Source of the DNA: Paludisphaera mucosa
GTDB lineage: Bacteria > Planctomycetota > Planctomycetia > Isosphaerales > Isosphaeraceae
Length of the DNA: 64,000 nt
NCBI RefSeq assembly: GCF_029589435.1
Contig: NZ_JARRAG010000002.1
Coordinates: forward strand, 4,402,001 to 4,466,000
Direction: 5' to 3'
The notes beneath the pieces were generated by a model, which was given only the letters and a program-made list of their open reading frames with translations, ran no database searches and was not told the DNA's origin. This document shows positions 6,618 through 55,409 of this stretch, piece after piece. Each line of letters starts with the position of its first letter. Positions within the stretch are counted from its first letter, which is position 1. The position numbers and the translations under genes were made by a program.

Positions 6618-8360
6618 TCACCTGGCGGGCGCGAGCAATCCTTCGGGGTGGTCGAGCACCAGGTAATGGCCGTGGTCGGACGAGACGACGAGGACGGAGT
6701 CTTCCCAGTTGCTCCGGGTCTCGACCCAGCGGATGATCCGCTTGATGGCGTCCTCGCCGCTGTAGACGGCTCCGACGGCGTTGTCCAGGTTGTTGGCGTG
6801 GAGCGCGAAGTCGACGTCGCCCGCCTCGACGAAGAGGATGAACCGCTGATCGGGCCGGGCCACGACGGCGAGCGCGGCGTCGGTCATCTGGGCGAGGGTC
6901 GGCTGGGCGTCGAGTTCCTCCTTGGAGTAGACCTCGGCGACCGGCTCCTTGCCGAGCTTCGCGGGGTTGGGAGGCGGGTCGTAGTTGCCGTCGGCGGTGC
7001 GGAAGGGGAGGTGGTCCAGCCCCTTGTCGCCGAAGAGGCCGAGGAGGCGCGAGCCGGTCCTGGTGGCCTCCTCGGCGGCGCGGGCGAGGGCCTCGCCGCC
7101 GTTGCTGCCCAGCTTCGTCTCGACGACGGTGTACTTTCCGCCGTTCTTGACGTCGATCGCGGCGCGGTCGGCGTCGGCGAGGAACAGGTGGCCGTCGACG
7201 GAGTTCTTGCCCTGCGCCTTGAAGTGCTTCTCCTCCATCATGATCCCGTAGCCGGTGCCCACGACGACGTCGAGCCCCGGGTGGAGCGGGACCTTGCGGG
7301 CCTCCTGGATGGCGCCCGGGATGCCGAGCATGGAGCGGGCGATGTCCTGGTAGTCGTCGCGATAGACGTTCTGGGCGTACATGCCGGCGGGCGACGCGTG
7401 CGGGAAGGGCACGCTGGTGACGACGCCGGTCTTCCAGCCCTTGGCCTGGAGGTCGTGGAAGAGGGTCGTCACGACGCGGCCGTCGTCGGTGACGTTGAGG
7501 CTGTTGTTGTACGACTTGACCCCGCTGACGATCTCCGCGGCGCTCTGGGAGGAGTCCGTGTACGAGTGCAGCAGCCGGCCGACGGCCTTCACCCCCTCCT
7601 TATCCTTGTCGTTCGCCGACTGGCCCTTGAAATAGCCGGGCGCCTGGGGTCCGAGCGGGCCGAGGGTCCAGGGGTTCGGGCCGGCGATCTGGGCGTCGTA
7701 GCCCCCCTTCATGCTGGTCTTGGGGATGGAGACGGTCTGCGCGTCGACGTCGAGGTCGCTGTCGTCGTGGGTCGGGCTGGTGACGACGTAGCCGTATTGC
7801 GGGTTCGAGCCCGCGCCGGCGTAGTCCTGGAAGATCAGGCCCGCGCCCTTGCCCTCGGTGTAGACCTTCTTGGACTTGGCGACGGCGGCGGCCTGGGTGG
7901 TCACCCAGTCCATGCCGTCGAACCAGACGATGAAGATATGCTTGCCCCCCCTGGCCGCGGCCGATTCGAGGACCTTGCGGATGTCGCTCTGGTCGGCGTA
8001 GTCGGCCTCGGGGTTGACGGTGTTCTCGGGGACGTAGCCGTAGATCGCGCGCAGCTTCTCGGCGTCGCGATAGCTGCTGGCCGGCCCCATGATGAGGCCG
8101 AGGTCGGCCTTGGCCCCCCAGGCGTAGACCGGGATCTGGCGGTTGGAGTGGCTGCCGTGGTTCGAGAAGACGTCGCCCGGCCCCTGCGAGCCGAAATGAT
8201 ACACGCGGTCGCGTTTCTCGCCGGCGTGGGTCGAATATTCCGTCTGCAGCTCCTTCAAGAGGTCTTCGGCCCGGGCCGTGCAGGCGGATCCCCAGGCGAG
8301 CAGCGCCGCCGCCAGCGAGGCGACGGTCGCGCGAACGGGTCGGGATGCGTGTCGGGTCAT
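6618..8360 (-). CDS. Alkaline phosphatase (PhoA superfamily), exported
   Basis: 580 residues from the ATG at 8360; longer upstream extensions are antisense to glgC and were rejected. Secreted phosphomonoesterase that frees phosphate. The signal peptide is VASLAAALLAWGSACTARA. The phosphoserine region is recognisable as YTDSSQSAAEIVSGVKSYN, parallel to the classical DSAAxATA...GVKTYN block. It is followed by TGVVTSVPFPHASPAG (usual form TTSxxxHATPA) and by metal-site motifs FVEAGDVDFALHANNLDNA and VVSSDHGHYLV. The changes DSS for DSA and EAGDVD for EGGRID mark it as a divergent subfamily. It is transcribed divergently from glgC across ~300 bases and ends with a hairpin. The OprO/P-like porin at 17-19 kb suggests a wider phosphate-uptake context. 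Confidence 0.87.
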   Translation of the reverse strand: MTRHASRPVRATVASLAAALLAWGSACTARAEDLLKELQTEYSTHAGEKRDRVYHFGSQGPGDVFSNHGSHSNRQIPVYAWGAKADLGLIMGPASSYRDAEKLRAIYGYVPENTVNPEADYADQSDIRKVLESAAARGGKHIFIVWFDGMDWVTTQAAAVAKSKKVYTEGKGAGLIFQDYAGAGSNPQYGYVVTSPTHDDSDLDVDAQTVSIPKTSMKGGYDAQIAGPNPWTLGPLGPQAPGYFKGQSANDKDKEGVKAVGRLLHSYTDSSQSAAEIVSGVKSYNNSLNVTDDGRVVTTLFHDLQAKGWKTGVVTSVPFPHASPAGMYAQNVYRDDYQDIARSMLGIPGAIQEARKVPLHPGLDVVVGTGYGIMMEEKHFKAQGKNSVDGHLFLADADRAAIDVKNGGKYTVVETKLGSNGGEALARAAEEATRTGSRLLGLFGDKGLDHLPFRTADGNYDPPPNPAKLGKEPVAEVYSKEELDAQPTLAQMTDAALAVVARPDQRFILFVEAGDVDFALHANNLDNAVGAVYSGEDAIKRIIRWVETRSNWEDSVLVVSSDHGHYLVLDHPEGLLAPAR

Positions 8361-31278: not shown

Positions 31279-32655
31279 TCAACGGCTGACGAAGCCCACG
31301 AGGGCGTTGTTCACGTAGATCGCGCCGGCGGGGATGTTGGTCCCGGCGGGGAAGGTCGAGTTGAGCAGGTAGGCCATCGGGCCGACGGTCGAGCCGGCGC
31401 CGAGCGACGAGCCCTGGACGACGGCCCCGCCGCCCACGGTCACGTCGTCGCCGAGGACCGACCTGGTCCCGCTCGCCCCGTCGAGGATCACCACGCCGGG
31501 GCCGGCGACGAACCGCTGGCCGATGGCGAGCGCGCCGCCGTTGGGGGCGTTGATCGTGACGCTGTTCGCGGTCTGGGCGATCGAGCCGATGGTGATCGAC
31601 TGGCCCTGGTCGGCCCGGATCGCGTTGCGGCGGCCGACGCTCGACGCGACCTGGTGGGCCCGCTGGGTGATCGACGCGTTGCCGGTGGCGCGGGCGGGGA
31701 AGCTCGTGAGGGCGGCGGGAACCTGGCCGCGGTGGGGCGAGGGGAACTTCGGCGCCGTGCCGGCCGGCAGGAAGGTCGTCGCGGGCCCCGGCTGCGAGTT
31801 CGAGCCCAGGATCGTCGACAGGTTGCCGTTGAAGATCCCCGTCCGGGTGGTCGGCACGCCCGGGCTGACGCCGGTGGCCGACTGCCCCTGGTACAGCGTG
31901 ATGTAGCCGACGCCCAGTTGCAGGTTGGCGGTGATCGTCTTGCCCAGGTCGGACAGGTCCGCGGCCGTGACCGGCGTCACCTTGCCGAGCGCGGGGTCCG
32001 ACGCCTCGGCGTCCGTCGTGACGTTCGCGCCCGCCAGGACCTTCATGCCGGCCGGGACCGTGACGCCGGGGCCGACGCGGGCCAGGGCCGACACGAACGC
32101 GCCGGGCGCGATGGCGGCGCCGTCGATCACCGCGCCGGGGCCGATGTAGGTCGGCTTCGAAGCCTCGTCGTAGGCCCCGATCACGGCCGGGCCGTTCACG
32201 GTCGCCCCGTAGCTGATCTCGACCTGGCTGCCGATCCGCACCTCGGGGACGTCCGACCCCTTCGAGTGCGTCGGGTTCGCCGTGATCGCGACGTTGTCGA
32301 GGATCGCCGTCCCGCCGCCGATCTTCACCACGCCGTCCGACGCATTCAGCTTGGCGTACGGCCCGATGAAGCTGCGGGCGCTCACGATCACCGCGTAGCC
32401 GTTCGTGACGCCCACCGACGGGTCGATGTAGGTCGCCGCGGCGGCCGTGTAGCCGTACGGCAGGACCGGCGTGTTCGGCCGGACCACCGGGTAGCCCACC
32501 GGCTGGTTCAGCAACGACTTCAACTCGGCCGACGAGATGTAAGTCGGCCAGTTGCCCGAGGTCAACAGCCGTCGCGCCTCCAGGCCCTCGGCCCCCGGAA
32601 GGAGCGCCTGCGAACGCCGCTTCGAGGGTTGCGATCGTTTGAGCATCATGATCAT
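31279..32655 (-). CDS. Left-handed beta-helix surface protein with LEPR-XLL motif
   Basis: 458 residues. The N-terminus is basic and carries GLEARRLLTSG, an LEPR-XLL-type export/sorting motif. Residues ~60-260 and ~390-458 show hexapeptide periodicity ([LIV]-G-x4: FIGPYAKLNA, VRIGSQVEISYGATVNGPAVIG, SVLGDDVTVGGGAVVQG), the left-handed parallel beta-helix seen in gamma-carbonic anhydrases and acyltransferases. The conserved metal His residues of gamma-CA were not found, so enzymatic activity is doubtful. A structural or binding role outside the cell is more likely. TGATCA palindromes overlap the start region. Confidence 0.78.
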   Translation of the reverse strand: MIMMLKRSQPSKRRSQALLPGAEGLEARRLLTSGNWPTYISSAELKSLLNQPVGYPVVRPNTPVLPYGYTAAAATYIDPSVGVTNGYAVIVSARSFIGPYAKLNASDGVVKIGGGTAILDNVAITANPTHSKGSDVPEVRIGSQVEISYGATVNGPAVIGAYDEASKPTYIGPGAVIDGAAIAPGAFVSALARVGPGVTVPAGMKVLAGANVTTDAEASDPALGKVTPVTAADLSDLGKTITANLQLGVGYITLYQGQSATGVSPGVPTTRTGIFNGNLSTILGSNSQPGPATTFLPAGTAPKFPSPHRGQVPAALTSFPARATGNASITQRAHQVASSVGRRNAIRADQGQSITIGSIAQTANSVTINAPNGGALAIGQRFVAGPGVVILDGASGTRSVLGDDVTVGGGAVVQGSSLGAGSTVGPMAYLLNSTFPAGTNIPAGAIYVNNALVGFVSR

Positions 32656-33173
32656 CCGTGATCAAATTCGTCGGGCTCTGGCCCCCTGGACTCGACGCGA
32701 TGATTACCTATATCGACGCACCCCCGCCGTCTCTCTAGTCTTCCTGATTGAACATTAATCCTTATAGCCGCCAACGGCCTGAGGACGTCGCGTGGCGAGG
32801 TAACCCCTGGAGAGCCGGTCGGCGAGGCCGGAATGACCAGAACGGCACCCACGCGAGTTCGGCTCTCGTCGCACGGGCTGACGAAACCAAATCGATTCGG
32901 TCCCGATCGCCATCAAGAGGAAGCAGGGGGGGATTTGCGATACCAAGGTGGTTCGCCAGAGTAACCTATCCAACTCGGCACCCGATTGGCCGTCGTCGCC
33001 GGGGGCCGGAAATACGGCTCGAAGTTCACATGCCGCCCCCCCGCTCGAGCGGTTCTCGATTCGCGCCGAGCAATCCTGTTGGGTTGGGACCGAGGGACGA
33101 GCCAGCCTCGTTGAGGTCGACCTGCAACGTGCCTTTACGCGTTGTATCGGTGCCGATCGTTCAGGCCCGGGGA
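32656..33173. other. Intergenic region with left arm of the flanking inverted repeat
   Basis: 518 bases without a convincing gene. 32656-32760 is AT-rich and probably promoter for the beta-helix gene. Two TGATCA sites (32649-32654 and 32659-32664) overlap its start. 32962-33024 is the left arm of the long inverted repeat. Confidence 0.6.
32962..33024. repeat. Left arm of ~63-bp inverted repeat flanking the acquired block
   Basis: The core 32962-32991 is the reverse complement of 37637-37666 at 29 of 30 positions. Weaker complementarity continues inward to ~33024 (pairing with ~37603-37636, with one indel), and a little outward. It marks the left end of the low-GC block. Confidence 0.8.
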
Positions 33174-33572
33174 TCACGCCATCTCGGAGGCCCGCATTAA
33201 CGCTTGGGTGTCGATATACTCCCGGATGTTCGTCAGCTTGCCATCTCGAACGGTGATGGCGAAGACCCAATGGTCCTCGAACGTCCTATTCGTGGCCTTG
33301 ATTCTCCCCGTGGCGAAGCCGACGACCAGAACCCGGTCTCCTTGCGCCACGAATTCGCGGGGTTCTGTCGAAGTTTCCACCGTCTCGGAAGCCTTCTGAA
33401 GCAGAGCTGCCAATCCCGCGTGCCCGCTGTACGTGCCGGCCAGCGGCCAGTCCTCGCCCGGGATGATCCACTCGATGTCTTCGGCGACCAGCGCCAGCAG
33501 ATTCTCCTCGTCGCCGCGGCCGATCGCGGCGAAGAAGTCTTTCACCGTCAGGACGTTCTCTTGAAGGCTCAT
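33174..33572 (-). CDS. SnoaL-like / NTF2-family protein
   Basis: 132 residues, cone-shaped alpha+beta barrel of the SnoaL/ketosteroid-isomerase type. VKDFFAAIGRGDEENLLALVAEDIEW, YSGHAGLAALLQK and EDHWVFAITVRDGKLTNIREYIDT are typical. Members act as isomerases, cyclases or small binding proteins; the substrate is unknown. It is the last gene of a three-gene leftward operon (oxidoreductase, epimerase-like SDR, SnoaL), 56 bases after the SDR gene. A clear lower GC than the host average supports transfer. Confidence 0.85.
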   Translation of the reverse strand: MSLQENVLTVKDFFAAIGRGDEENLLALVAEDIEWIIPGEDWPLAGTYSGHAGLAALLQKASETVETSTEPREFVAQGDRVLVVGFATGRIKATNRTFEDHWVFAITVRDGKLTNIREYIDTQALMRASEMA

Positions 33573-33628
33573 TGAAATATCTCCCTCTCTCTTAGATTGG
33601 ATTCGTGGTGGCGTTGGTTCAGTTCAGC

Positions 33629-34594
33629 TCAGTGGGCAGGGAAGTAGTGGCCGTTGTCCAAATCGGCGAGCAGGCCGGGCTGAGCGGGTTCCCAGCCCAG
33701 GGCATGGCGCGTGATGAGGTTGGACGCCGGGAGGTCCAGCGTGACCAAATTCGCGAGGAACCCGAAGTATCCCGGCAGCATCAGCACGTCCGCGGGGATG
33801 CTGACGGCCGGCAGGCCCAGGCGGCTGCCGATGGCCTCGGCGATCTCGCGGAACCGGACGCCCTCGCCCTCGATCCCGTGCCAATTTTTGCCGGCCGGGC
33901 CCTTCTCCAGCGCCAGGCGGAACAAGGAGGCGAGGTCGCGGCCGTGCACGGCCGGCCACAGATTCGCTCCGTCCCCGGGGTAGCCGACGGCGCCCTTCTC
34001 CTTCGCGAGCCCGATCAGAAGCGGGAGGAAGCCGGCATCGGTCGTGCTGTGCGCGATGGGAGGGATCCGCACGATCGAAGACCGCACGCCCCGCTCCGCG
34101 AGGCCGACGACGGCGAGCTCCACGACGTTGCGAACCCGCAGGGAACCCTTGTACTCACCGCCGCCGGGGGGAAGGGCCGGATCCTCCTCGGTCGCGGGTC
34201 GTCCCAGGAAGTGGGCCCCGGGGGCTGGCCAGCCCAAGTTCGTGGGCGAGCCAATGCTCCCCGACGCGACCAGGGGCTTTCCGGTTCCGGCCAGGGCCTC
34301 GCCGTACGCGAGCATGATCTGGAGCTCCGCGGCGGCCACTGCGTCCATCCCACCGGAGGGAAGCAAGTCTTGCCTGTGGGCGACGTGGATGACGCCGTCG
34401 GACTCCGCCGCCGCCGCTTTGAGCCCTTCGAGATCGGAAAGATCCCCCCGACGCACCTTGGCGCCGAGCGCGGACACCGCCGCCGCGGACTCGTCGGATC
34501 GGGCCAGGCCGGTGACCTCGTGGCCGGCGGCGATGAGCTCGGGGATGATGTACGAACCGATATGGCCGGTCCCGCCAGTGACGAAAACACGCAT
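33629..34594 (-). CDS. NAD(P)-dependent epimerase/dehydratase-type SDR
   Basis: 321 residues from the ATG at 34594, which has AAGGAG 8 bases upstream. Extended SDR/atypical Rossmann enzyme: the dinucleotide motif VFVTGGTGHIGSYIIPEL is at the N-terminus. AGHEVTGLARSDES, GVIHVAHRQD and VNGRDLA-type VHGRDLASLFRLALE are family landmarks. The canonical YxxxK is not obvious, as in many atypical SDRs (NmrA/DUF1731-like), so the enzyme may reduce small carbonyl or enone substrates or act as a redox sensor. It is the middle gene of the operon under the MarR-type divergent promoter. Confidence 0.87.
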   Translation of the reverse strand: MRVFVTGGTGHIGSYIIPELIAAGHEVTGLARSDESAAAVSALGAKVRRGDLSDLEGLKAAAAESDGVIHVAHRQDLLPSGGMDAVAAAELQIMLAYGEALAGTGKPLVASGSIGSPTNLGWPAPGAHFLGRPATEEDPALPPGGGEYKGSLRVRNVVELAVVGLAERGVRSSIVRIPPIAHSTTDAGFLPLLIGLAKEKGAVGYPGDGANLWPAVHGRDLASLFRLALEKGPAGKNWHGIEGEGVRFREIAEAIGSRLGLPAVSIPADVLMLPGYFGFLANLVTLDLPASNLITRHALGWEPAQPGLLADLDNGHYFPAH

Positions 34595-34640
34595 TTCATG
34601 CTCCTTGTGAGGGATGTGAGTAGTAGGCCTCCGGGCGCGC

Positions 34641-35276
34641 TCAGCCGAGAAGACTGACGCCAATTGAGAAGTTTGTATGTTTGATGGAGTGGGCGACGAG
34701 GCCCAGCGACAGCAGGCCGACGTGCTCCAGCGTCCGTGCCAGGCTCAGCGGCCCGGTATCCCTCGGGCGCAGTCCGAGGCTCTCGATGAACGCCGAGACG
34801 CGTGCCTTCGCCTCCGCGTTGTCCCCGGCGAGGAACACGTCCAACGGGTGGCCTTCGGTGGGACCGGCAGCCAGGACGTGGGAGAATTGGGTGTTGAACG
34901 CCTTGACGACATCCGCATCGGCAGGGGCGGCCTTGGCGATCTCCTGCGCGCCGGAACTGTCCTCGGGGGTCACAAGGCTCATGTGGTCGGAGGCGACGGG
35001 GTTGGTGACGTCGACGAGGTGCTTGCCCGCCAACCCTTCACCGTAATGCTTCACCACGTCGAGAACGGCAGCGTAAGGGACCGCCAGGATGACGATGTCC
35101 CCGGCCGGGGCGGCGCCGAACGTTCCTGTCGTCGCGCCAGCTCCGACTTGCTCGGCCAGCGCCCGCGCCTTCGCGGCGTCGCGACTCATCACCTCGACGG
35201 CATGTCCGGCCTTGGCGGCAAGGCCGCCGATCGCCGCGGCCATGCCGCCTGATCCGATGATGCTGATGGTGCTCAT
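34641..35276 (-). CDS. NADPH-dependent F420-reductase-like oxidoreductase
   Basis: 211 residues from the ATG at 35276, with a GAAGGGGG-type site upstream. The Rossmann motif is ISIIGSGGMAAAIGGLAAKAGHAVEV. GDIVILAVPYAAV, GKHLVDVTNP and VKAFNTQFSHVLAAGP match the NADP oxidoreductase, coenzyme-F420-dependent family (PF03807). Most bacterial members without F420 are probably general NADPH reductases. It is the first gene of the operon, divergent from the OhrR-type regulator, and is therefore the likely direct target of that regulator. Confidence 0.87.
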   Translation of the reverse strand: MSTISIIGSGGMAAAIGGLAAKAGHAVEVMSRDAAKARALAEQVGAGATTGTFGAAPAGDIVILAVPYAAVLDVVKHYGEGLAGKHLVDVTNPVASDHMSLVTPEDSSGAQEIAKAAPADADVVKAFNTQFSHVLAAGPTEGHPLDVFLAGDNAEAKARVSAFIESLGLRPRDTGPLSLARTLEHVGLLSLGLVAHSIKHTNFSIGVSLLG

Positions 35277-35303
35277 GTTCGTGTTCCCCCTTCCAGTCGG
35301 GTT

Positions 35304-35392
35304 GTTAAATCGCGTCCGACTTAATCGTGTGCGTTTCAATGTTAGCTCGCGCCTGGATCAAGTCAATCGCATCCGCTATAATCGGGTGCGAT
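35304..35392. promoter_or_regulatory. Divergent promoter with four operator-like repeats (MarR/OhrR targets)
   Basis: Four copies of AATCGnGTnCG-like sequence start at 35308, 35323, 35365 and 35380, in two pairs each spaced 15 bases. The second pair also forms an imperfect palindrome (35366-35375 with 35383-35392). A perfect TATAAT at 35377-35382 serves the rightward regulator, so that palindrome straddles it. On the minus strand TTGACT (35366-35361) and TAACAT (35344-35339), 16 bases apart, suit the leftward operon. Binding by the adjacent MarR protein is inferred. Confidence 0.65.
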
Positions 35393-35430
35393 ACATGGTG
35401 GCCGCGACGTCACAAGCTCCGGAGGGACCC

Positions 35431-35898
35431 ATGACCCGTTCCCCAAAGGCCGAAGCCGAAGGCCCGAAACTCTCGAAATATCTGTGCTTTGCGGTCTATT
35501 CGGCCAATCTGGCGTTCGGCCGCGCCTACAAGCCGATCCTGGATGCGGTCGGCCTGACCTACACCCAGTACATCGCGATGGTGGCCCTGTCGGAGCAGGA
35601 CGAGCAGACCGTGAGCGAGCTCGGCGAGAAGCTGTTCCTGGAATCCAACACGCTGACGCCGATCCTCAAAAAGCTGGAGCAGACCGGCAAGATCAGCCGC
35701 ACCCGCGATCCCGCCGACGAGCGGCAGGTGAGGGTGAGCCTGACCGCGGCCGGCCGGCGCCTGCTCAAGAACGATCTCGGTAGGGCGCTGGTCGAGTCCT
35801 GCGGCTTGGGTGACGAGTTCTCCGCCGTGCAGACGAACGTCGTCAGGCTGCGCGACAATCTGCTGCGCAACACGAGGGGCAAGCAGGATGAGACGTGA
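35431..35898 (+). CDS. ohrR: MarR-family redox regulator, OhrR type
   Basis: 155 residues from the ATG at 35431 (GGAGGGA 4 bases upstream; an ATG at 35395 would add 12 residues). Winged-helix repressor: LSKYLCFAVYSANLAFGRAY has the conserved N-terminal Cys19 that OhrR proteins oxidise on contact with organic hydroperoxides. LTYTQYIAMVAL, LGEKLFLESNTLTPILKKLE and RDPADERQVRVSLT give the wHTH and wing. It is divergent from the three-gene oxidoreductase operon, with operator-like repeats between them, so peroxide or electrophile de-repression is the natural model. No ohr peroxidase gene is adjacent, which is unusual. Confidence 0.87.
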   Translation: MTRSPKAEAEGPKLSKYLCFAVYSANLAFGRAYKPILDAVGLTYTQYIAMVALSEQDEQTVSELGEKLFLESNTLTPILKKLEQTGKISRTRDPADERQVRVSLTAAGRRLLKNDLGRALVESCGLGDEFSAVQTNVVRLRDNLLRNTRGKQDET

Positions 35899-35933
35899 TG
35901 CCGTCCGTAGCTCTTATTCTCCTTGGGCTTAGC

Positions 35934-35979
35934 ACGCCCAACGTCGCTCGGAATAATCGGATGGAGCGACGTAGGGCGT
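35934..35979. terminator. Long bidirectional terminator hairpin
   Basis: A 16-bp stem with one mismatch (35934-35949 with 35964-35979) and a 14-base AT-rich loop. It lies between the convergent ohrR-like and SDR genes and touches the SDR stop codon. Confidence 0.7.
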
Positions 35980-36713
35980 CAGAGTTGAGCCAGGCCTCCG
36001 TCGACGGCGACTTCGCTGGCAGTCATGAAGCTGCTGTCCGACGACGCGAGGAAGGCGGCCACCGCTCCGATTTCCGCCGGATCGGCCATGCGCTGAAGCG
36101 GAGTCATCGCGGCATAGGCCTTCTGGCCCTCCTCGCCCAGCGCTGCCTTCGCGAGTTCGGTCGCCGTCGCCCCGGGCGAGAGCACGTTGACCCGGATGCC
36201 GGTGCCCTTCAAGTCCTCCGCCCAGGTCCTCGCGAGGTTGCGGACTGCCGCCTTGCTCGCGCTGTAAGCGCTCATTCCCGGTGCGCCCGTGGTGCCGGCG
36301 CTCGACCCGGTCAGGATGATCGAACCGCCCTCGCGCAAGAGCGGCAGCGCCTTCTGGACCGTGAAGATCGTACCCTTCACATTGGTGTCGAAGGTCTCGT
36401 CGATGTGCTCGGCGGTGATCTTGCCGAGCGGAGCCTGGCTTCCCGCCCCGGCATTGGCGAAGACGACGTCGAGGGTCCCGCGCTCGGCCTTCACCGCCGC
36501 GTACAATCGGTCGAGGTCGGCCTCATCGGCGACCGATCCCCTCACCGCGCGGGCATTGGGCCCGAGGTCCGCCACAGCGGCGTCGAGCGCCTCCTGCCTG
36601 CGGCCGAAGATGAAGACGATGGCGCCCTCATCGATAAAGCGCTTTGCAGCGGCGCGGCCGATGCCGGTAGCCCCACCCGTGATGACCGCCACTTTACCTT
36701 CAAGCTTTCCCAT
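35979..36713 (-). CDS. Classical short-chain dehydrogenase/reductase
   Basis: 244 residues from the ATG at 36713 (GGGAGGA 6 bases upstream). Classical SDR: cofactor motif AVITGGATGIGRAAAKRF, VFANAGAGSQAP (NAG motif), ILTGSSAGTTGAPGMSAYSASKAAVRNLARTW with catalytic Ser, Tyr and Lys (YSASK), and VLSPGATATEL. It probably reduces a carbonyl or oxidises an alcohol with NAD(P)H. FIFGRRQEALDAA points to an NADP preference (Arg after the second strand). Its promoter contains a TetR-type operator, so the divergent TetR gene probably represses it. Confidence 0.92.
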   Translation of the reverse strand: MGKLEGKVAVITGGATGIGRAAAKRFIDEGAIVFIFGRRQEALDAAVADLGPNARAVRGSVADEADLDRLYAAVKAERGTLDVVFANAGAGSQAPLGKITAEHIDETFDTNVKGTIFTVQKALPLLREGGSIILTGSSAGTTGAPGMSAYSASKAAVRNLARTWAEDLKGTGIRVNVLSPGATATELAKAALGEEGQKAYAAMTPLQRMADPAEIGAVAAFLASSDSSFMTASEVAVDGGLAQL

Positions 36714-36779
36714 GACATTCCTCCCTAATGTGTCGTCGGCTGGCGCCCTTGTTCCCATCGCGACAAGGGCGGTGCATAA

Positions 36780-36836
36780 TGGACCACCGGTCCAGATCCC
36801 GACCCGGAGTATTCGGACCACTGGTCCGTTTGTCAA
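36780..36836. promoter_or_regulatory. TetR-type operators and promoter of the SDR gene
   Basis: Two 15-bp palindromes of form (T/C)GGACCACnGGTCC(A/G): 36780-36794 and 36814-36828, centre to centre 34 bases. On the minus strand a consensus -35 TTGACA (36836-36831) and AATACT -10 (36813-36808) are 17 bases apart, and the right palindrome fills exactly the spacer between them. The left palindrome lies just past the expected start site. This is a textbook layout for tight repression; binding itself was not shown. Confidence 0.75.
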
Positions 36837-36844
36837 GGCATCTC

Positions 36845-37405
36845 ATGCGAGCCGACGCCAAAAAGAATTACAGCCACCTGCTTGAAGTCGCGCGTGACGT
36901 CGTTGCGGAGCATGGCGCGGACACGTCCATGCGAGAAATCGCCCGCCGGGCCGACGTCGGGTTTGCCACGCTGCTACGCCATTTCCCGACGCGAGAAGCC
37001 TTGTTCGAAGCGTTGCTGCGTTCAAATCTGGACGCGCTGACGCAGAAGGCAGACGAGCTCGAAACGGAGAACTCACCCGATGAAGCACTCGTCTCCTGGT
37101 TTCGAGAAGTGGTGGCATTCACGCATAGCTATAGCGGCGTTGTCGCCTTGATGGCGAGCGCCCACGCGGACCCGGACTCCGCGCTTTACGCCACATGCTC
37201 AGCGGTGCACTCGGCGGGCGCGCGACTATTGCTCCGTGCTCAAGCCGAGGGGACGGCGCGCGCCGATATGGATGGGGTCGACCTTTTCGCCCTGGTGTCC
37301 GCGCTCGCCTGGCTCTACGGCCAACCCTCATTCGCGCCACGGGGGGATCATCTCTCTCAAGTTATCACGAGTTCCATCCTGACTAAGCAGCAACCAGCTG
37401 GATGA
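36845..37405 (+). CDS. TetR/AcrR-family repressor
   Basis: 186 residues from the ATG at 36845 (MRADAKKNYSHLLEVARDV; the longer frame to 36728 would run through the operators, so it was rejected). N-terminal HTH: TSMREIARRADVGFATLLRHFPTREALFEALL. The C-terminal ligand-binding domain is all-helical, with FREVVAFTHSYSGVVALMASAH. It likely represses itself and the divergent SDR gene through the palindromes upstream. The ligand is unknown, probably the SDR substrate. GC is visibly lower than the host's (33 of 60 bases in 36841-36900). Confidence 0.9.
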   Translation: MRADAKKNYSHLLEVARDVVAEHGADTSMREIARRADVGFATLLRHFPTREALFEALLRSNLDALTQKADELETENSPDEALVSWFREVVAFTHSYSGVVALMASAHADPDSALYATCSAVHSAGARLLLRAQAEGTARADMDGVDLFALVSALAWLYGQPSFAPRGDHLSQVITSSILTKQQPAG

Positions 37406-37774
37406 GATCGGTGAGATTCCTACCTGCGGCGGAGGCGCAGGTGCAATTCGGCGGGATGAGCGTTTTTATCGCCAACGACATGGCGGGTCCGAGTGCGAAG
37501 ACGCACGAAAGACCGAACTGGAATTCGGCTGGTGAAATTTCAGGGGCGGGATGGACCTTCTCGCCCAAGAATTTCCATCTGTATTTTCCAGCATTCGGCG
37601 GCCTCCAAGCCGTGTATCCGGCCCCCCGTCCACGAAGGCCAATCGGGTGCCGAATTGGATAGGTTATTTTGCGAGACTCCTAAAGATCCGGGTCATACGC
37701 GGCACCGCCCGGCAGACGCCCCCCCTCGAATTCCGCAAACTCGGGGCTTCGCTCAGTCCGATCGAGGCACAGCC
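37406..37774. other. Intergenic region with right arm of inverted repeat
   Basis: A 7-bp hairpin (37422-37442) just after the TetR stop is a likely terminator. The right arm of the flanking inverted repeat is at 37603-37666. Beyond it the sequence returns to host-like GC. No gene was recognised. Confidence 0.6.
37603..37666. repeat. Right arm of the inverted repeat flanking the acquired block
   Basis: Reverse complement of 32962-33024: core 37637-37666 matches at 29 of 30 positions, and the inner part at about 80%. The distance between outer ends is about 4.7 kb. No transposase gene lies inside. Confidence 0.8.
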
Positions 37775-38182
37775 ATGCACGCCGATTTCGCCGATTTCGG
37801 GCCGCCGAAGAACCTCACGTCCCGGGCTCGTCGGTTCATCTTCCTGGGCCTGCTCGCGCCCTTCACGGTCCTGACCTACCTCGCGGTAAGCTCGGGATCA
37901 CCCGGCGACGTCCGCGACCGCCCCGTGGCCCTCACGACGCTGGCGACGATCACCGGCCCCTTCATCGGGGCCATCGCCCGCAATGGACAGCCCTGCTGTC
38001 TTCAATCCTCGCTCCGGCTCGCGGCGGTCTGCGGCCCGGCGCTGGCGCTGGGGCTCACCGTCCAGGTCGTCGCGCCGCCCTTCGGACGGGGCCGGCGGGC
38101 GGTTCGGCTGGCGTTCTGGGCGATCGGCTGGTTCGTATGGCTCCTCGGTGGACACGTCTCGTTCATGCACGCCCTGTCCTGA
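37775..38182 (+). CDS. Small multi-pass membrane protein, unknown
   Basis: 135 residues from the ATG at 37775. Four hydrophobic segments: FIFLGLLAPFTVLTYLAV, LTTLATITGPFIGAIA, LAAVCGPALALGLTVQV and LAFWAIGWFVWLLGGHVSF. A short cytoplasmic N-terminus precedes them. No family was recognised. It sits just outside the right arm of the inverted repeat and 10 bases before the hydrolase gene, so these two are probably one transcript. The RBS is poor. Confidence 0.65.
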   Translation: MHADFADFGPPKNLTSRARRFIFLGLLAPFTVLTYLAVSSGSPGDVRDRPVALTTLATITGPFIGAIARNGQPCCLQSSLRLAAVCGPALALGLTVQVVAPPFGRGRRAVRLAFWAIGWFVWLLGGHVSFMHALS

Positions 38183-38192
38183 GGCCCTTGAT

Positions 38193-38870
38193 ATGCCGCA
38201 CGACGTCCAGGAGTTGAAGTTCCTCGCCACGCCGGAGAAGGGCGATGTCTCCGCCCTCCTGATCCGGCCGGAAGGCGCGACGCATCTGCTCGTCCTCGGC
38301 CATGGCGCCAGCACGAACATGCGGCATGCCACGCTGCAGTCGATCGCCGATCGATTGGCCGAGGTCGGGGTCGCGACGCTCCGCTACAACTTCCCCTACT
38401 CGGAGCACGGCAAGGGCCGGGACGGGCAGGCCGTCTGCACGGAGACCATCCGTTCGGCGGTCGCCGCGGCGCGGAAGGCCTCTCCCGACCTGCCCTTGCT
38501 GGCGGGCGGCCATTCCTTCGGCGGACGCATGACCTCGACGGCGGCGTCCGAATCGCCGATCGAGGGCGTTCACGGCCTGGTCTTCTTCTCCTTCCCGCTC
38601 CACCTGGCGGGCAAGCCCGAGACGAAGCGGGCCGACCACCTCGCGGACGTCGCCGCGCCGATGCTCTTCCTGAGCGGGACGCGCGACGAACTGGCGGACC
38701 TGGACCTGCTCAGGCCGGTCTGCGAGAGGCTCGGGCGCCGCGCGACGCTTCATCTCCTCGACACGGCCGATCACGGCTACAAGATCCTCAAGAAATCCCG
38801 CGCGAGCGACGAGGACGTCTTCGTCGAGATGGCTCGCGTCGCTCAGGCCTGGGCGGCGGGCTTGAGGTAA
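38193..38870 (+). CDS. Alpha/beta hydrolase of the KANL3/Tex30 type
   Basis: 225 residues, cytoplasmic. ATHLLVLGHGASTNMRHA holds the oxyanion-hole region. LLAGGHSFGGRMTSTAA is the nucleophile elbow with catalytic Ser (GHSFGG). FLSGTRDELADL supplies the acid, and LLDTADHGYK the His. This matches dienelactone-hydrolase-like KANL3/Tex30 proteins, whose substrates are mostly unknown. It follows the membrane-protein gene by 10 bases. The AlkD-like gene follows 65 bases later on the same strand. Confidence 0.88.
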   Translation: MPHDVQELKFLATPEKGDVSALLIRPEGATHLLVLGHGASTNMRHATLQSIADRLAEVGVATLRYNFPYSEHGKGRDGQAVCTETIRSAVAAARKASPDLPLLAGGHSFGGRMTSTAASESPIEGVHGLVFFSFPLHLAGKPETKRADHLADVAAPMLFLSGTRDELADLDLLRPVCERLGRRATLHLLDTADHGYKILKKSRASDEDVFVEMARVAQAWAAGLR

Positions 38871-38935
38871 AGACGACATGCCGACGAACTTGCGAAACGC
38901 AGAGCTGGCCGAGACGAAACAAGGAGGGTGGCGCG

Positions 38936-39565
38936 ATGGAGCTTGCGGAGGTGCTCGGACGGCTCGACGCCCAGGCGGCGGGCAAGACGCGCGTGATGAT
39001 GGGGCCGTTGCGGGCGCTGGGCGCGAAGCTCAAGGCCGACCACGCCCTCGCGCTCGCGTTGTGGGACACCGGGCGGCTCGATGCGAGGCTCCTGGCCACG
39101 ATGGCCATGACGCCGGATCGACTCACGGCCGAGGACGCCGAGTCGATGCTCGCTTCGGTCGTCGACGTCCAGGTCGTGGACGAGCTGACCTACAAGGTCG
39201 TCGCGGAAGCGCCCTGCGCGGACGAGTCGTGTCGGAAGTGGGCGGGCGCCGAGCAGCCGCTGATCGGGCGAGCGGGCTGGAACTTGCTGGTGGCGAAACT
39301 CCTCAGCAAGCGGCTGGCCGCCGGGGAGTGCGCGGACATCCTGGAGACCATCGAGTCCGGTTGCAAGTCGGCCCCGGTGGAGAAGGCGGAGTCGATGATG
39401 CGGTGCCTGGTGGAGATCGGCGTGCGCTTCCCGGAACACCGGCCGCGAGCGATCGATATCGGCACCCGCTGGGGCCTGATCGACGACCGGCCGGTTCCGA
39501 AGGGATGCACGCCGTTCTACGCGCCGGACTGGATCGCCGCAATCCTCAAGCGCAAGAAGGCCTGA
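38936..39565 (+). CDS. DNA alkylation repair (AlkD-like HEAT-repeat) protein
   Basis: 209 residues, ATG at 38936 after AAGGAGGG. AlkD-like proteins excise alkylated bases such as 3-methyladenine and 7-methylguanine. The sequence shows HEAT-type helices (KADHALALALWDTGRLDARLLATMA, DVQVVDELTYKVV). The SWWDTVD-like block of AlkC/AlkD is not exact, so this may be a PF08713 relative with altered chemistry. RKWAGAEQPLIGRAGWNLL and CLVEIGVRFPEHRPRAIDIG are conserved in these relatives. It converges with a sulfatase gene, sharing a hairpin. Confidence 0.82.
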   Translation: MELAEVLGRLDAQAAGKTRVMMGPLRALGAKLKADHALALALWDTGRLDARLLATMAMTPDRLTAEDAESMLASVVDVQVVDELTYKVVAEAPCADESCRKWAGAEQPLIGRAGWNLLVAKLLSKRLAAGECADILETIESGCKSAPVEKAESMMRCLVEIGVRFPEHRPRAIDIGTRWGLIDDRPVPKGCTPFYAPDWIAAILKRKKA

Positions 39566-39597
39566 AGCGGGCGACGATCAGCCGGCGCCCGACTTCA
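39563..39597. terminator. Hairpin spanning both convergent stop codons
   Basis: An 11-bp stem with one bulged base (39563-39573 with 39586-39597). The TGA of the AlkD-like gene and the complementary stop of the sulfatase form the ends of the stem. Confidence 0.5.
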
Positions 39598-40953
39598 CGG
39601 CATCGCGCGCCGCCAGGCGAGCGCCTGGTCGGCGAGGCGGCGGGCCAGGGCGGGCTCGGCCGCGGCGCGGTCGTGGCGTTCTTCGGGGTCGAGGGCGAGG
39701 TCGTACAGCTCGGCTCCGGTGCCGTCGGCGTTCACCAGCAGTTTCCAGTCGCCGTCCAGGATCGCCACGTTCGGCGAGCGGTCGTCGCCCGGGGGGTAGT
39801 CGAACGAGGACGGGTTGCGGCCGTACTCCCAGAAGAGGGGCTTCGCGCGTCGGGGACGCTCGCCGCGGAGGACGGACAGCAGGTTCTCGCCGTCGGATTC
39901 GTAACCCGGGCGCAGGGGGGCGCCGGCGAGGGCGCAGAGCGTCGGGAAGAGGTCGACGGCCGAGAGGACGGTCGCCGTGTTCGTCACGCCCGAGGGGACC
40001 AGGCCCGGCCCCCAGGCGAGGAACGGCAGCCGCACGCCCCCCTCGTAGAGGCTCAGCTTGCTGCCGCGGAAGACGCCCGATCGGCGGCGGTCGAGCGTGG
40101 GCAGGGGGCCGTTGTCGGAGAGGAACAGCACGAGCGTGGGCCGGGCCGAGCCCCCCGCGCGGACCGCGTCCAGCAGCCGACCGACCTGGCGGTCGACCTC
40201 CTCCAGCACGCCGCGGAGCCGCCCGGGCGTCGACGCCTTGCCGACGGTCCGGCCCTCCTTGCCGGCCGCCTGGTCCTCGGCCGAGGGGACCCAGGGGGTG
40301 TGCGGGTCGTCGAGCCACAGGTTCACGAAACAGGGCCGGTCGGCGTGGCCTTTCAGGAAGTCGAGCGTCCGGTCGACCATCCATCGCGTGCGGTCCCATC
40401 GCTTGACCGGGTCGCGGTCCGACCAGATCCAGTCGGTCGCCGTGATGTCGGGATGGGGCTCGGGGCTCTCCCAGGTGCCCAGGCCGACGTCATAGCCGTA
40501 GGCGGCGAACTTGGGCGGGTCGACCACGTCGCGGCCGCCGCCGAGATGCCACTTGCCGACGTGAGCCGTCGCGTAGCCCGCCGACTTCAGCGTCCGCGGC
40601 AGGCTGGGCGCGGCCGGGTCCAGGAAATCGGCCTGCCCGCACGCGCGGTTGCCCGCCCGGGTCTGGAGGTAGCTGGTGATCCGCCAGCGCGCCGGGAACT
40701 GACCGGTCAGCAGCCCGCACCGCGAGGGCGAGCAGATCGGCGAGGCCGAGTAGTACCGCGTGAGCCGGACCCCCTCGCGGGCCATGCGGTCGAGGTTCGG
40801 CGTCTTCGCCAGGTCGCCGCCGTAGCAGCCCAGGTCGGTGTACCCCATGTCGTCCGCGTATACGACCACGATGTTGGGCCGGACGTCCGCCTCAGGCGCG
40901 TCCGACGCCAGCACCAGCCCCGCGACGATCGCCAGCACGCTCAAGCCCGTCAT
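39595..40953 (-). CDS. Sulfatase (formylglycine type), exported
   Basis: 452 residues from the ATG at 40953 (GAGGAGGG ~8 bases upstream). Signal peptide: LSVLAIVAGLVLASDA. Metal-site IVVVYADDMGYTDLGCYGG, active-site SPICSPSRCGLLTGQ with Cys74 as formylglycine precursor, GKWHLGGG, FLSDNGPLP, and C-terminal ELYDLALDPEERHD. Same family as the sulfatase at 801-2312 but clearly a different subfamily. Substrate unknown, probably a sulfated polysaccharide. Converges with the AlkD-like gene. Confidence 0.93.
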   Translation of the reverse strand: MTGLSVLAIVAGLVLASDAPEADVRPNIVVVYADDMGYTDLGCYGGDLAKTPNLDRMAREGVRLTRYYSASPICSPSRCGLLTGQFPARWRITSYLQTRAGNRACGQADFLDPAAPSLPRTLKSAGYATAHVGKWHLGGGRDVVDPPKFAAYGYDVGLGTWESPEPHPDITATDWIWSDRDPVKRWDRTRWMVDRTLDFLKGHADRPCFVNLWLDDPHTPWVPSAEDQAAGKEGRTVGKASTPGRLRGVLEEVDRQVGRLLDAVRAGGSARPTLVLFLSDNGPLPTLDRRRSGVFRGSKLSLYEGGVRLPFLAWGPGLVPSGVTNTATVLSAVDLFPTLCALAGAPLRPGYESDGENLLSVLRGERPRRAKPLFWEYGRNPSSFDYPPGDDRSPNVAILDGDWKLLVNADGTGAELYDLALDPEERHDRAAAEPALARRLADQALAWRRAMP

Positions 40954-43051: not shown

Positions 43052-44101
43052 ATGCGACGGCATGTCTCCCGAGGATTCACGCTGATCGAGCTGCTCGTGG
43101 TCATTGCGATCATCGCCGTGCTGATCGCGCTCTTGCTGCCGGCCGTGCAGTCGGCGCGCGAGGCGGCGCGGCGGGCGCAGTGCATCAACAACCTGAAGCA
43201 GATCGGGCTGGGGCTGCACAACTATCACAGCGCCCTCAACTCGTTCCCCATGACGGCGACGATCGCCTACCAGGAGATCGGCTCCGCCCAGACGGCCGAC
43301 TGGGGCACCTGGGGGGCCAATGCCATGCTCCTCCCCTACCTGGAGCAGCGGCCTCTCTACGACGCGGCCAACTTCTGCTGGACGACCTGGCAGGGGACCG
43401 GCGCAGTGCACAATTCGACCGTCTTCCTCTCGAAGGTGGCCGCGTTCATGTGCCCCTCCGACGGCCTGACCGGGGTCGAGAACACCAACAATTACTTCGG
43501 CTCCGTGGGCACGACCGCGGGGTTCTACCCGAACCAGCAGTCGACGGGGATCTTCGCCAGCAAGGCGAACTACGGCATCCAGCACGTCACCGACGGCTCG
43601 TCGAACACCATCGCCTACTCCGAGGCCCTCGTCTCCGGCCCCATCTACAGCCCGAGGCAGGCGAAGTGGCGCGACGGCCCCTCCAACACCGGCGGGGCCG
43701 GCGTCGCCTACTCGCTGCTCGACGCCCCCTCCACCCCCGCCAACATCGTCGCGCTGAAGGCGGATTGGCAGATCTGCAACGACTGGTTCCGGACCCAGCG
43801 GAGCATGGGCCAGCGTGGGTTCCGCTGGAACCTCGGCGCCCTCGGCGAGAGCATGTTCCAGACGCTGGTCCCGCCGAACTCGAACGACTACCCCTGGAAC
43901 TCGTGCCGGATGGACTGCGGGCCCGACTGCGGGGCGCTCCACAGCGGCTATTACAACGCCACCAGCAACCATCCCGGCGGCGTCAACGCCTGCATGGCCG
44001 ACGGCAGCGTGAAGTTCATCAAGAGCTCGGTCGCGATGCCCGTCTGGTGGGCGCTCGGCACCAAGGCCGGCGGCGAGGTCGTCGGCTCCGACTCCTACTG
44101 A
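43052..44101 (+). CDS. DUF1559 protein (planctomycete pilin-like)
   Basis: 349 residues, AGAGGAG upstream. The N-terminus is a type IV prepilin/pseudopilin signal: [20 protein letters not shown] (Gly followed by Phe-Thr-Leu-Ile-Glu, the prepilin peptidase site). The invariant [19 protein letters not shown] follows, and the C-terminus has [21 protein letters not shown], the DUF1559 H-x-G-G...DGS end. DUF1559 proteins are very abundant in planctomycetes and are thought to be surface or pseudopilus-like; the function is undetermined. The next gene starts 14 bases after the stop and is likely in the same operon. Confidence 0.95.
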
Positions 44102-49761: not shown

Positions 49762-50769
49762 TCAATACTGGTCGGCGGAGACGATTTCGCCGCCGGCGCG
49801 GGTCACCAGGGCGGCGATCGTCTGCAGCGAGACGCTGTCCTTGATGTACCGCACCGAGCCGTCGCCGAGCAGGACGTTGATCCCGCCGGTGTGGAACGAG
49901 AAGAGGCCGCCGGTCCCCTCGCTGACGTAGTACGGGTGGGGGAACGGCTGGCCGAAGACGTCCTCGCCGTTGGCGGCGTTGATGACCACCGGGCCGGGGA
50001 AGACCGAGCCGTCGGCCGTCGAGCCGTTGAGGCTGACGTCGCTGGCGGGACGGGCCCAGCCGCCGGCGTTGACGCGGTGGTCGGGGACCGAGCCGAAGAC
50101 CTTGCCGCCCCGGCGATAGGCGAACGGCCGGCCGGCCGACTCGACGAAGACGATCGTGTTCGAGAGCCCGTCGGTGGCGTCGGCCAGGCGGGTCTTCTTG
50201 TTCTTGACGATCAGCGACTCGGGCGGGGTGGCGCCGGCCGGGAAGACGTTGTACGGGGGGCCGCCCAGGCGGGCGTCGATGCCGACGATCGGCGAGTAGT
50301 CGGTGATGGCGGCGACCGTGGCGGACCAGGTCGGCGAGTAGGGCTGCACCTCGGGGATGCCGTCCAGCCGGCTCGCGTCGGCCGGGCTCGACGGGCAGAC
50401 CAGCGTGTTGATCCGCGTCTTGACGGCCGTCGCGTTGGACGGGTCGCCCCAGGTGATGCCGATGTTCAGGGCGTTGAAGATCTGGGTCTGCTCCATGTAG
50501 TTGAGCATGGTCAGGATCGCCGCCACCCGCGGCGCGGTCGTCAGGCCCGACGGACGCAGGCTGTAGGGGACGTTGTTGTTGACGTCGTGGAAGTTGTGGA
50601 ACGCGATGCCGATCTGCTTGAGGTTGTTGACGCACTGGGCGCGGCGGGCGGCCTCGCGGGCGGCCTGGACGGCCGGCAGCAGGAGCGAGATCAACACGGC
50701 GATGATGGCGATGACGACCAGCAATTCGATCAGCGTGAAGCCCGCCCGAACGCGACGGAAACGAATCAT
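49762..50769 (-). CDS. DUF1559 protein (planctomycete pilin-like)
   Basis: 335 residues. Prepilin-like start: [20 protein letters not shown], followed by [18 protein letters not shown] and [18 protein letters not shown]. The C-terminus has [21 protein letters not shown], the family end. Cys pair and overall length fit. Paralogue of the genes at 43.1 and 54.3 kb. A small lipoprotein-like gene (50883-51431) lies upstream on the same strand, 113 bases away. Function unknown. Confidence 0.95.
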
Positions 50770-54281: not shown

Positions 54282-55409
54282 ATGCTACGTTCCGATAGGA
54301 AAGCGCGTGGCTTCACGCTGATCGAACTGCTGGTGGTCATCGCCATCATCGCCGTCTTGATCGCCCTCCTCCTCCCGGCCGTGCAGTCGGCCCGCGAGGC
54401 CGCCCGCCGCGCCCAGTGCATCAACAATCTGAAGCAGATCGGCCTGGCGATGCACAACTACCACTCGGCGAACAATTCGTTCCCGATGGGCGTCGCGGCT
54501 TCGTACAACACGCTCAACGGGTCGAACCCCTGCGTCGCCTGGTCCGGTTGGAGCGTCCACTCGCTGCTGCTGACGTCGATGGAGCAGACGGCGATCTACA
54601 ACGCCGCCAACTTCCAGCTCGACCCGCTGCAGGGCGTCGGCTGGGACATCAACCAGACCTCCTGGTCGACCAAGATCGCCTCGTTCCTGTGCCCCTCCGA
54701 CGGCAACGCGGGCAAGGCGGGCTACAACAGCTACTACGCCAGCCGGGGCACGACGTTCGACGCCGACTACCAGGTCAGCCAGAACGCGCCGCCGAACTGC
54801 GGCGGCACCAAGAGCACCGGCGTCTTCTCGTACCAGACGACCTACGGCATCTCCGACATCACGGACGGGACGTCCAACACGGTCGCCTTCAGCGAGGGCC
54901 TGGTCGGAGCGAACGACAACCGCGCCCGGCCGTTCCTCACGGGCGTCAACGTCGACAGCCTGAGCAGCATCGGGTCCGACCCGACGAAGTCGCAGGACGC
55001 CGGCGGCATGCTGGCGATGGGCGAGATGCCGCCGGGCGCCGCGTTCTCAAGCGTCCTGCAGACGTGCTCGCAGGCCTTCCAGACCGCGACGTCGGGCGGC
55101 GGCCTCTCCTCCAACCGCGGCGGCCACTGGGCCTGGGGCACCGAGGGCTTCACGCTGTTCAACACCCTCGTCCCGCCCAACTCGACGCAGTACACCTGGT
55201 CGACCTGCCGGTTCGGCTGCGGCACCTGCGGCGTCGGCTCGGCGGACCACACCCACCTGACGAACGCCAACAGCAACCACTCCGGCGGCGTGAACGTCCT
55301 CTTCGGCGACGGCAGCACCCGGTTCGTCAAGAACTCGGTCGCCATGAACATCTGGTGGGCCCTCGGCACCAAGAACGGCGGCGAGATCATCAGCTCCGAC
55401 GCCTATTGA
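54282..55409 (+). CDS. DUF1559 protein (planctomycete pilin-like)
   Basis: 375 residues, CAGGAG upstream. Prepilin-type N-terminus [20 protein letters not shown] with [18 protein letters not shown] and [19 protein letters not shown]-terminus [22 protein letters not shown], then [18 protein letters not shown]. Near-identical opening to the gene at 43.1 kb, but the middle differs. Followed by a strong terminator hairpin. Confidence 0.95.

Follow-up and report, generated by a model that had tools for sequence, protein, structure and literature searches.

On plasmids of rhizobia and Burkholderiales, such as pSymA of S. meliloti (CP073679.1) and pSBC2-4 of Caballeronia (NZ_CP049320.1), genes for an F420 reductase, an epimerase, (a second F420-like reductase) and a SnoaL protein are clustered with genes for a TetR or helix-turn-helix (HTH) regulator and a short-chain dehydrogenase/reductase (SDR), and in Paraburkholderia largidicola and Lichenicola cladoniae an SDR gene lies opposite a TetR gene, with palindromic operators in the intergenic region. 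OhrR regulators (2pfb/2pex; 1z91) have a conserved reactive cysteine and control an adjacent ohr peroxiredoxin gene. Mobile insertion cassettes have inverted repeats around a transposase-less cargo, and passenger elements with inverted repeats and without a transposase are known (e.g., PMC5444012). Here, we analyzed 64,000 nucleotides (the window) of the genome of Paludisphaera mucosa (Planctomycetota; Isosphaeraceae), positions 4,402,001 to 4,466,000 of contig NZ_JARRAG010000002.1. The window contains a 4.7-kb block that is bracketed by an inverted repeat and in which a MarR regulator lies opposite an F420-epimerase-SnoaL operon and a TetR regulator lies opposite an SDR. Judged from sequence comparisons, this block is most probably a mosaic that was acquired horizontally from Pseudomonadota and inserted in one lineage of the Isosphaeraceae. 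Its genes are as follows.

33174 to 33572, minus strand: SnoaL_2/NTF2-like protein (PF12680, E 2.4e-15), last gene of the F420-epimerase-SnoaL operon
33629 to 34594, minus strand: NAD-dependent epimerase/NmrA-type oxidoreductase (PF01370)
34641 to 35276, minus strand: NADPH-dependent F420-reductase-like oxidoreductase (F420_oxidored, PF03807), first gene of the operon
35431 to 35898, plus strand: OhrR-like MarR repressor with an LCF reactive-cysteine motif (Cys19), aligned to OhrR 2pfb
35979 to 36713, minus strand: SDR-family oxidoreductase (PF13561, E 4.6e-57)
36845 to 37405, plus strand: TetR-family repressor with TetR_N and SbtR-like C-terminal domains (domain match)
37402 to 37533, plus strand: probable relic, a C-terminal fragment resembling an epimerase/SDR-type oxidoreductase (weak match)

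Apart from the relic, this is the content that a first-pass annotation of the window had described, an OhrR-type regulator opposite a three-gene operon and a TetR repressor opposite an SDR, and the two divergons are indeed self-contained. The block has in common with the plasmid clusters the enzymes (72 to 92% amino acid identity), the order of the F420 and epimerase genes, and the TetR family with its operators, but it lacks the second F420-like gene, its F420 operon lies opposite an OhrR-like MarR and not a TetR/HTH regulator, and its SDR diverges from TetR and converges with MarR. The divergent layout of SDR and TetR is that of P. largidicola and L. cladoniae, where TetR is 68 to 76% identical, but the SDR of these species is only 53 to 54% identical to the SDR in the window. 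With mobile insertion cassettes the block shares the inverted repeats around transposase-less cargo, but sister copies, an autonomous partner or a target-site duplication were not found. The best PDB sequence match of the SnoaL_2 protein is 3fgy (E 2e-59). The stretch between TetR and the right arm of the repeat is probably a pseudogene fragment of the C terminus of an epimerase-type oxidoreductase; it matches a Paraburkholderia phymatum plasmid with 41% amino acid identity over 41 residues, a weak match (E 0.9 against the plasmid collection and 9e-5 against a small set). No papers on this gene set were found in the literature.

The best matches of the genes of the block are from Pseudomonadota, with 72 to 92% identity at the amino acid level and mostly 75 to 89% at the DNA level over whole genes. 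The epimerase is up to 92% identical to a protein encoded on the Caballeronia SBC2 plasmid and about 92% identical to one of the metagenome-assembled genome (MAG) BA398, and its paralogues native to Isosphaeraceae are only 44 to 51% identical. SnoaL reaches 82% identity to Pseudomonadota and 80% to BA398, after which the next-best match in the family drops to 38%, and the SDR has 82 to 92% amino acid and 85 to 89% DNA identity to Pseudomonadota. MarR is 94% identical to the protein of BA398, the only other genome of the family with an orthologue, and 67 to 74% identical to rhizobial and Paraburkholderia homologues. TetR is 67 to 76% identical to proteins of Pseudomonadota, in which its orthologues lie opposite the F420 operon in some cases and opposite an SDR in others; an orthologue is present in no other genome of the family, the best match there being 39% identical. 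Homologues of the F420 protein from its own phylum are only 33 to 40% identical. In a tree of 103 rows, the F420 protein nests in a clade of 28 rows, otherwise made up of Pseudomonadota, with a support of 99/97, and its sister is the protein of BA398. Close matches in Pseudomonadota, distant planctomycete homologues, the nested F420 protein and the patchy distribution of orthologues thus clearly point to a cross-phylum horizontal acquisition from Pseudomonadota by Planctomycetota.

The composition of the block is atypical. The GC content is 60 to 69% over most of it and up to 72% within the epimerase gene, and that of the flanks is 70 to 75%. At third codon positions (GC3), the six genes have values of 0.69 to 0.88 versus a background of 0.94 ± 0.04. 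TetR deviates most, with a GC3 of 0.69 and a codon distance of 0.316 versus 0.107 ± 0.033. The lower GC that had been noted in the first pass from two short segments holds for both measures, and a comparison of codon usage gene by gene, proposed there as a check, agrees with it. Patchy presence, foreign phylogeny and atypical composition, as expected of a horizontally acquired island, are all found here, but the integrase and tRNA attachment site of a classical island, which are not required of every acquired segment, are not. There is no tRNA gene in the 64-kb window, and among those open reading frames of the window that were scanned with Pfam, neither an integrase or recombinase nor, in agreement with the earlier description of the block itself, a transposase was detected, inside the block or elsewhere.

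None of the five congeners has the module. In three of them (G001, G003 and G004), the hexapeptide-repeat gene (31279 to 32655) and the sulfatase gene (39595 to 40953) are near neighbors, 0.6 to 1.8 kb apart, with a different short gene of about 0.6 kb between them. These congeners lack all of 32762 to 39585, i.e., the block plus the three genes to its right, a stretch larger than the block from arm to arm. In the search for empty sites in sister genomes, also proposed in the first pass, the module is missing there, but the gap reaches beyond the arms and is occupied by another gene. The alpha/beta hydrolase gene (38193 to 38870) occupies other positions in two other congeners, with 80 to 82% amino acid identity, which means that this gene has changed its place within the genus.

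The block itself is composed of fragments, at least two of which meet at a junction that could be narrowed down to a few bases.

35897 to 35905, no strand: fusion junction between the MarR-side and SDR-side fragments
35906 to 35978, minus strand: inherited spacer from downstream of an SDR gene, with a hairpin (35934 to 35979), the remnant of a ribosome-binding site and the very start of the gene that follows in the donor operon, as seen when ten proteobacterial SDR loci are aligned

Homology to BA398 begins at the SnoaL stop (33179), has a DNA identity of 86 to 91% and ends at the MarR stop (35896). From 35906 on, the window is homologous to the sequence that follows SDR genes in many Pseudomonadota, and thus the fusion lies within the nine bases in between. 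A similarity of the window to BA398 downstream of MarR, considered as a common SDR remnant, was not significant (934 of 2,000 shuffles). The 16-bp hairpin (35934 to 35949/35964 to 35979; z, -5.05), which the first-pass annotation had taken for a terminator between the two divergons, does exist, but a T tract is missing, it was not called as a terminator, and it was inherited from inside the donor operon; its function as an intrinsic terminator was therefore rejected. A further exchange likely took place near 36714 to 36740, between SDR and TetR, because the Paraburkholderia SDR that accompanies TetR shares only 53 to 54% identity with the SDR here.

The locus of BA398 (Isosphaeraceae; JARLIH010000366.1 and a 7.9-kb contig) has the same four-gene F420-epimerase-SnoaL/MarR divergon as the window but no SDR, TetR or inverted repeat. 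There, the divergon adjoins an intact tRNA-Leu(CAG) gene, and on the far side is a 60-nucleotide direct copy of the 3' part of the tRNA (58 identical; L183, about 6910 to 6970, and L184, 2253 to 2339, on contigs C187 and C216 of G033); no integrase was seen. The tRNA repeat looks like an attL/attR-like duplication of an attachment site in a mini-island without an integrase. The break between the two contigs falls within the epimerase gene, and the 3.3-kb unit is therefore a putative one. The BA398 copy shows that the four-gene divergon also reached a different place in the family in a different way, and it suggests that the MarR divergon circulates within the family.

At the apparent transition from foreign to native DNA sits an orphan inverted repeat.

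32957 to 33024, plus strand: left arm, core 32962 to 32991, weaker in its inner part (33006 to 33024); elsewhere in the genome it recurs only as the right arm
37603 to 37671, minus strand: right arm, core 37637 to 37666, recognized by its pairing with the left arm

The cores are complementary at 29 of 30 positions, and pairing is weaker further inward, to 33024/37603, exactly as first annotated. Without gaps, the arms extend over 32957 to 33005/37623 to 37671 (43 of 49 complementary), and the extended arms have diverged by 12%. On the assumption of independent sites, 1.3e-5 inverted pairs of at least 29 of 30 are expected in 64 kb, and the best inverted pair in 10 Markov-3 simulated windows was 26 of 30. 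A permissive gapped score of the arms gave an E value of only 0.02 for the whole window (P 1.4e-6 for these two flanks); therefore, the strength of the repeat is its core. Each core is an imperfect palindrome (CCAA-n-TCGG-CAC-CCGA-TTGG), and the arms bracket the foreign genes closely, with 149 and 197 bp to spare.

A 22-bp core with up to three mismatches occurs at just two sites in the 8.2-Mb genome, which are these two arms. The search against the genome and relatives that the first-pass annotation had called for thus speaks against a genome-wide (REP-like) extragenic repeat. None of 44 other genomes of the family carries the repeat; only scattered three-mismatch sites were found, and a reversed-pattern control also gave a few. 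One of these, in G001 (L104), falls within or beside a stretch resembling the gene at 37775 to 38182, is not in an equivalent place and was taken as chance. No homologous arm was found in 58 relatives and 391 other genomes of the phylum, where there was one weak partial match (35 nucleotides, E 8.6e-4, in G002). PLSDB plasmids gave no match, the core has no exact match in IMG/VR, and the best match in a phage collection was just 23 nucleotides (E 0.8). A target-site duplication abutting the arms was not seen on reading the flanks; the sole word common to both is TTTGCGA (32934 to 32940/37668 to 37674), 21 bp off the left core. So, with no other copies of the arms and no target-site duplication, the repeat is neither an extragenic repeat nor a recognizable end of a known element. 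Coding relics were rejected as well (the reading frames match nothing in the loci compared, and the mismatches are without triplet pattern), as were hairpins (the DNA fold of each arm is no better than that of shuffles) and known RNAs or tRNAs (none matched). The core (32975 to 32990) and the second MarR operator described below have the word CACCCGATT in common, on opposite strands, which may be chance.

How the arms arose can be weighed separately from the origin of the genes. We take the repeat as a scar of the insertion event, either degenerate transposon ends or a fold-back duplication, and not as a currently mobile structure. The fold-back variant, in which local DNA was copied in inverted orientation through template switching or break repair as the block was inserted or rearranged, is compatible with the mosaic, and we hold it tentatively: each arm is single and present only at this locus, divergence grows gradually from the core, with indels and no sharp end, and the locus is rearranged in congeners, but an unduplicated ancestral copy of the arm was not found in congeners, at the site or elsewhere. 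Alternatively, the arms could be true terminal inverted repeats of a transposase-less passenger element, like a mobile insertion cassette, that was moved in trans, which comes close to the earlier suggestion that a non-autonomous element may carry the block as its cargo. Long and specific, the arms tightly bracket DNA that is foreign, and there is no transposase inside. This is nevertheless unlikely: no second copy or autonomous partner turned up in the organism's own genome, the 44 family or the 391 phylum genomes or in the plasmid, viral and phage collections, the arms have no adjoining target-site duplication, and what they enclose consists of several fragments that were fused independently, plus a relic. 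We consider it more doubtful again that the arms terminate an unrecognized transposase-less element that assembles and carries divergons of regulators and targets across phyla and that the 3.3-kb, tRNA-Leu-flanked copy of BA398 is a second landing of its cargo. Delivery of the DNA by transposition is possible.

The near-perfect inverted and palindromic cores could also be recombination sites of an invertible segment of 4.7 kb, but this is very improbable with extended arms that far diverged and no recombinase among the open reading frames scanned; moreover, all promoters are internal, so inversion would not switch genes. It is practically untenable that the genes are ordinary native ones, slightly lower in GC, that lie next to a common extragenic repeat, even though the GC content is only moderately lower and distant paralogues of some of the proteins exist in the family: the repeat occurs just twice, the genes are absent from congeners, and the F420 protein nests in Pseudomonadota in its tree, and these findings refute that explanation. 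Some observations do weigh against a mosaic acquired from Pseudomonadota. The native-looking genes to the right of the block belong to the stretch that is missing in congeners, and the boundaries of the insertion cannot be placed to the base. The SDR-TetR divergons that occur in Burkholderiales and Acetobacteraceae contain another SDR (52 to 54% identity), so the third junction (about 36714 to 36740) is less certain. Finally, a donor in which the six genes occur together in this order did not turn up, and we therefore infer the number and order of transfers.

Both divergent promoters contain palindromic operator-like sites, recognized by their sequence pattern.

35310 to 35334, no strand: predicted MarR operator, copy 1, TCGCGTCCGACTTAATCGTGTGCGT, in tandem with copy 2 in the divergent promoter
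35367 to 35391, no strand: predicted MarR operator, copy 2, palindrome TCGCATCCG-CTATAAT-CGGGTGCGA
36781 to 36793, no strand: predicted TetR operator 1, GGACCACCGGTCC
36815 to 36827, no strand: predicted TetR operator 2, GGACCACTGGTCC, overlapping a -35/-10-like site

A sequence similar to copy 2 is present upstream of the MarR gene of BA398, and the GGACCA-GGTCC sites of the TetR promoter correspond to sites of the GGATCA-TGATCC type upstream of the proteobacterial TetR orthologues examined; TetR arrived with predicted operators of its own. MarR aligned to OhrR 2pfb with an E value of 3.7e-30, including the reactive cysteine (Cys19), and belongs to the same sequence family. The NCBIfam OhrR model scores it at 109 bits, below the cutoff of 200, so it is OhrR-like and not a curated member. 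OhrR systems control the adjacent ohr gene; here, ohr is not adjacent, and the divergent neighbor of MarR is F420_oxidored, with which the F420-epimerase-SnoaL operon starts. A homologue of MarR on a Phyllobacterium plasmid (L130, 4406 to 5459) faces an ohr peroxiredoxin gene, which hints at a regulator that was rewired from ohr to the F420 operon. From the sequence, we infer operator binding, inducers and substrates of both switches: in the simplest model, each repressor would shut its own divergent oxidoreductase promoter, giving two independent switches. MarR would sense oxidants and be released on oxidation of Cys19, and TetR would be released by a small ligand. The NAD(P)H-dependent enzymes would then be made only under peroxide or carbonyl/electrophile stress.

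Elsewhere in the window, repeats of about 150 bp (50587 to 50742, 54306 to 54488 and also 43073 to 43228) were noticed. Two of these repeats coincide with the N-terminal ends of DUF1559 (SBP_bac_10)/N-methylation genes, which form a paralogous family that is repeated in congeners, too.

The acquisition of the block is ordinary in kind, a horizontal transfer, and well resolved in detail. It is a well-documented transfer of complete regulatory units from Pseudomonadota to Planctomycetota, with a fusion point resolved to 9 nucleotides and with the predicted operators intact. It is also a clean example of how regulation travels with its target genes and is rewired, an OhrR-like regulator having replaced TetR/HTH in front of the F420-epimerase operon.

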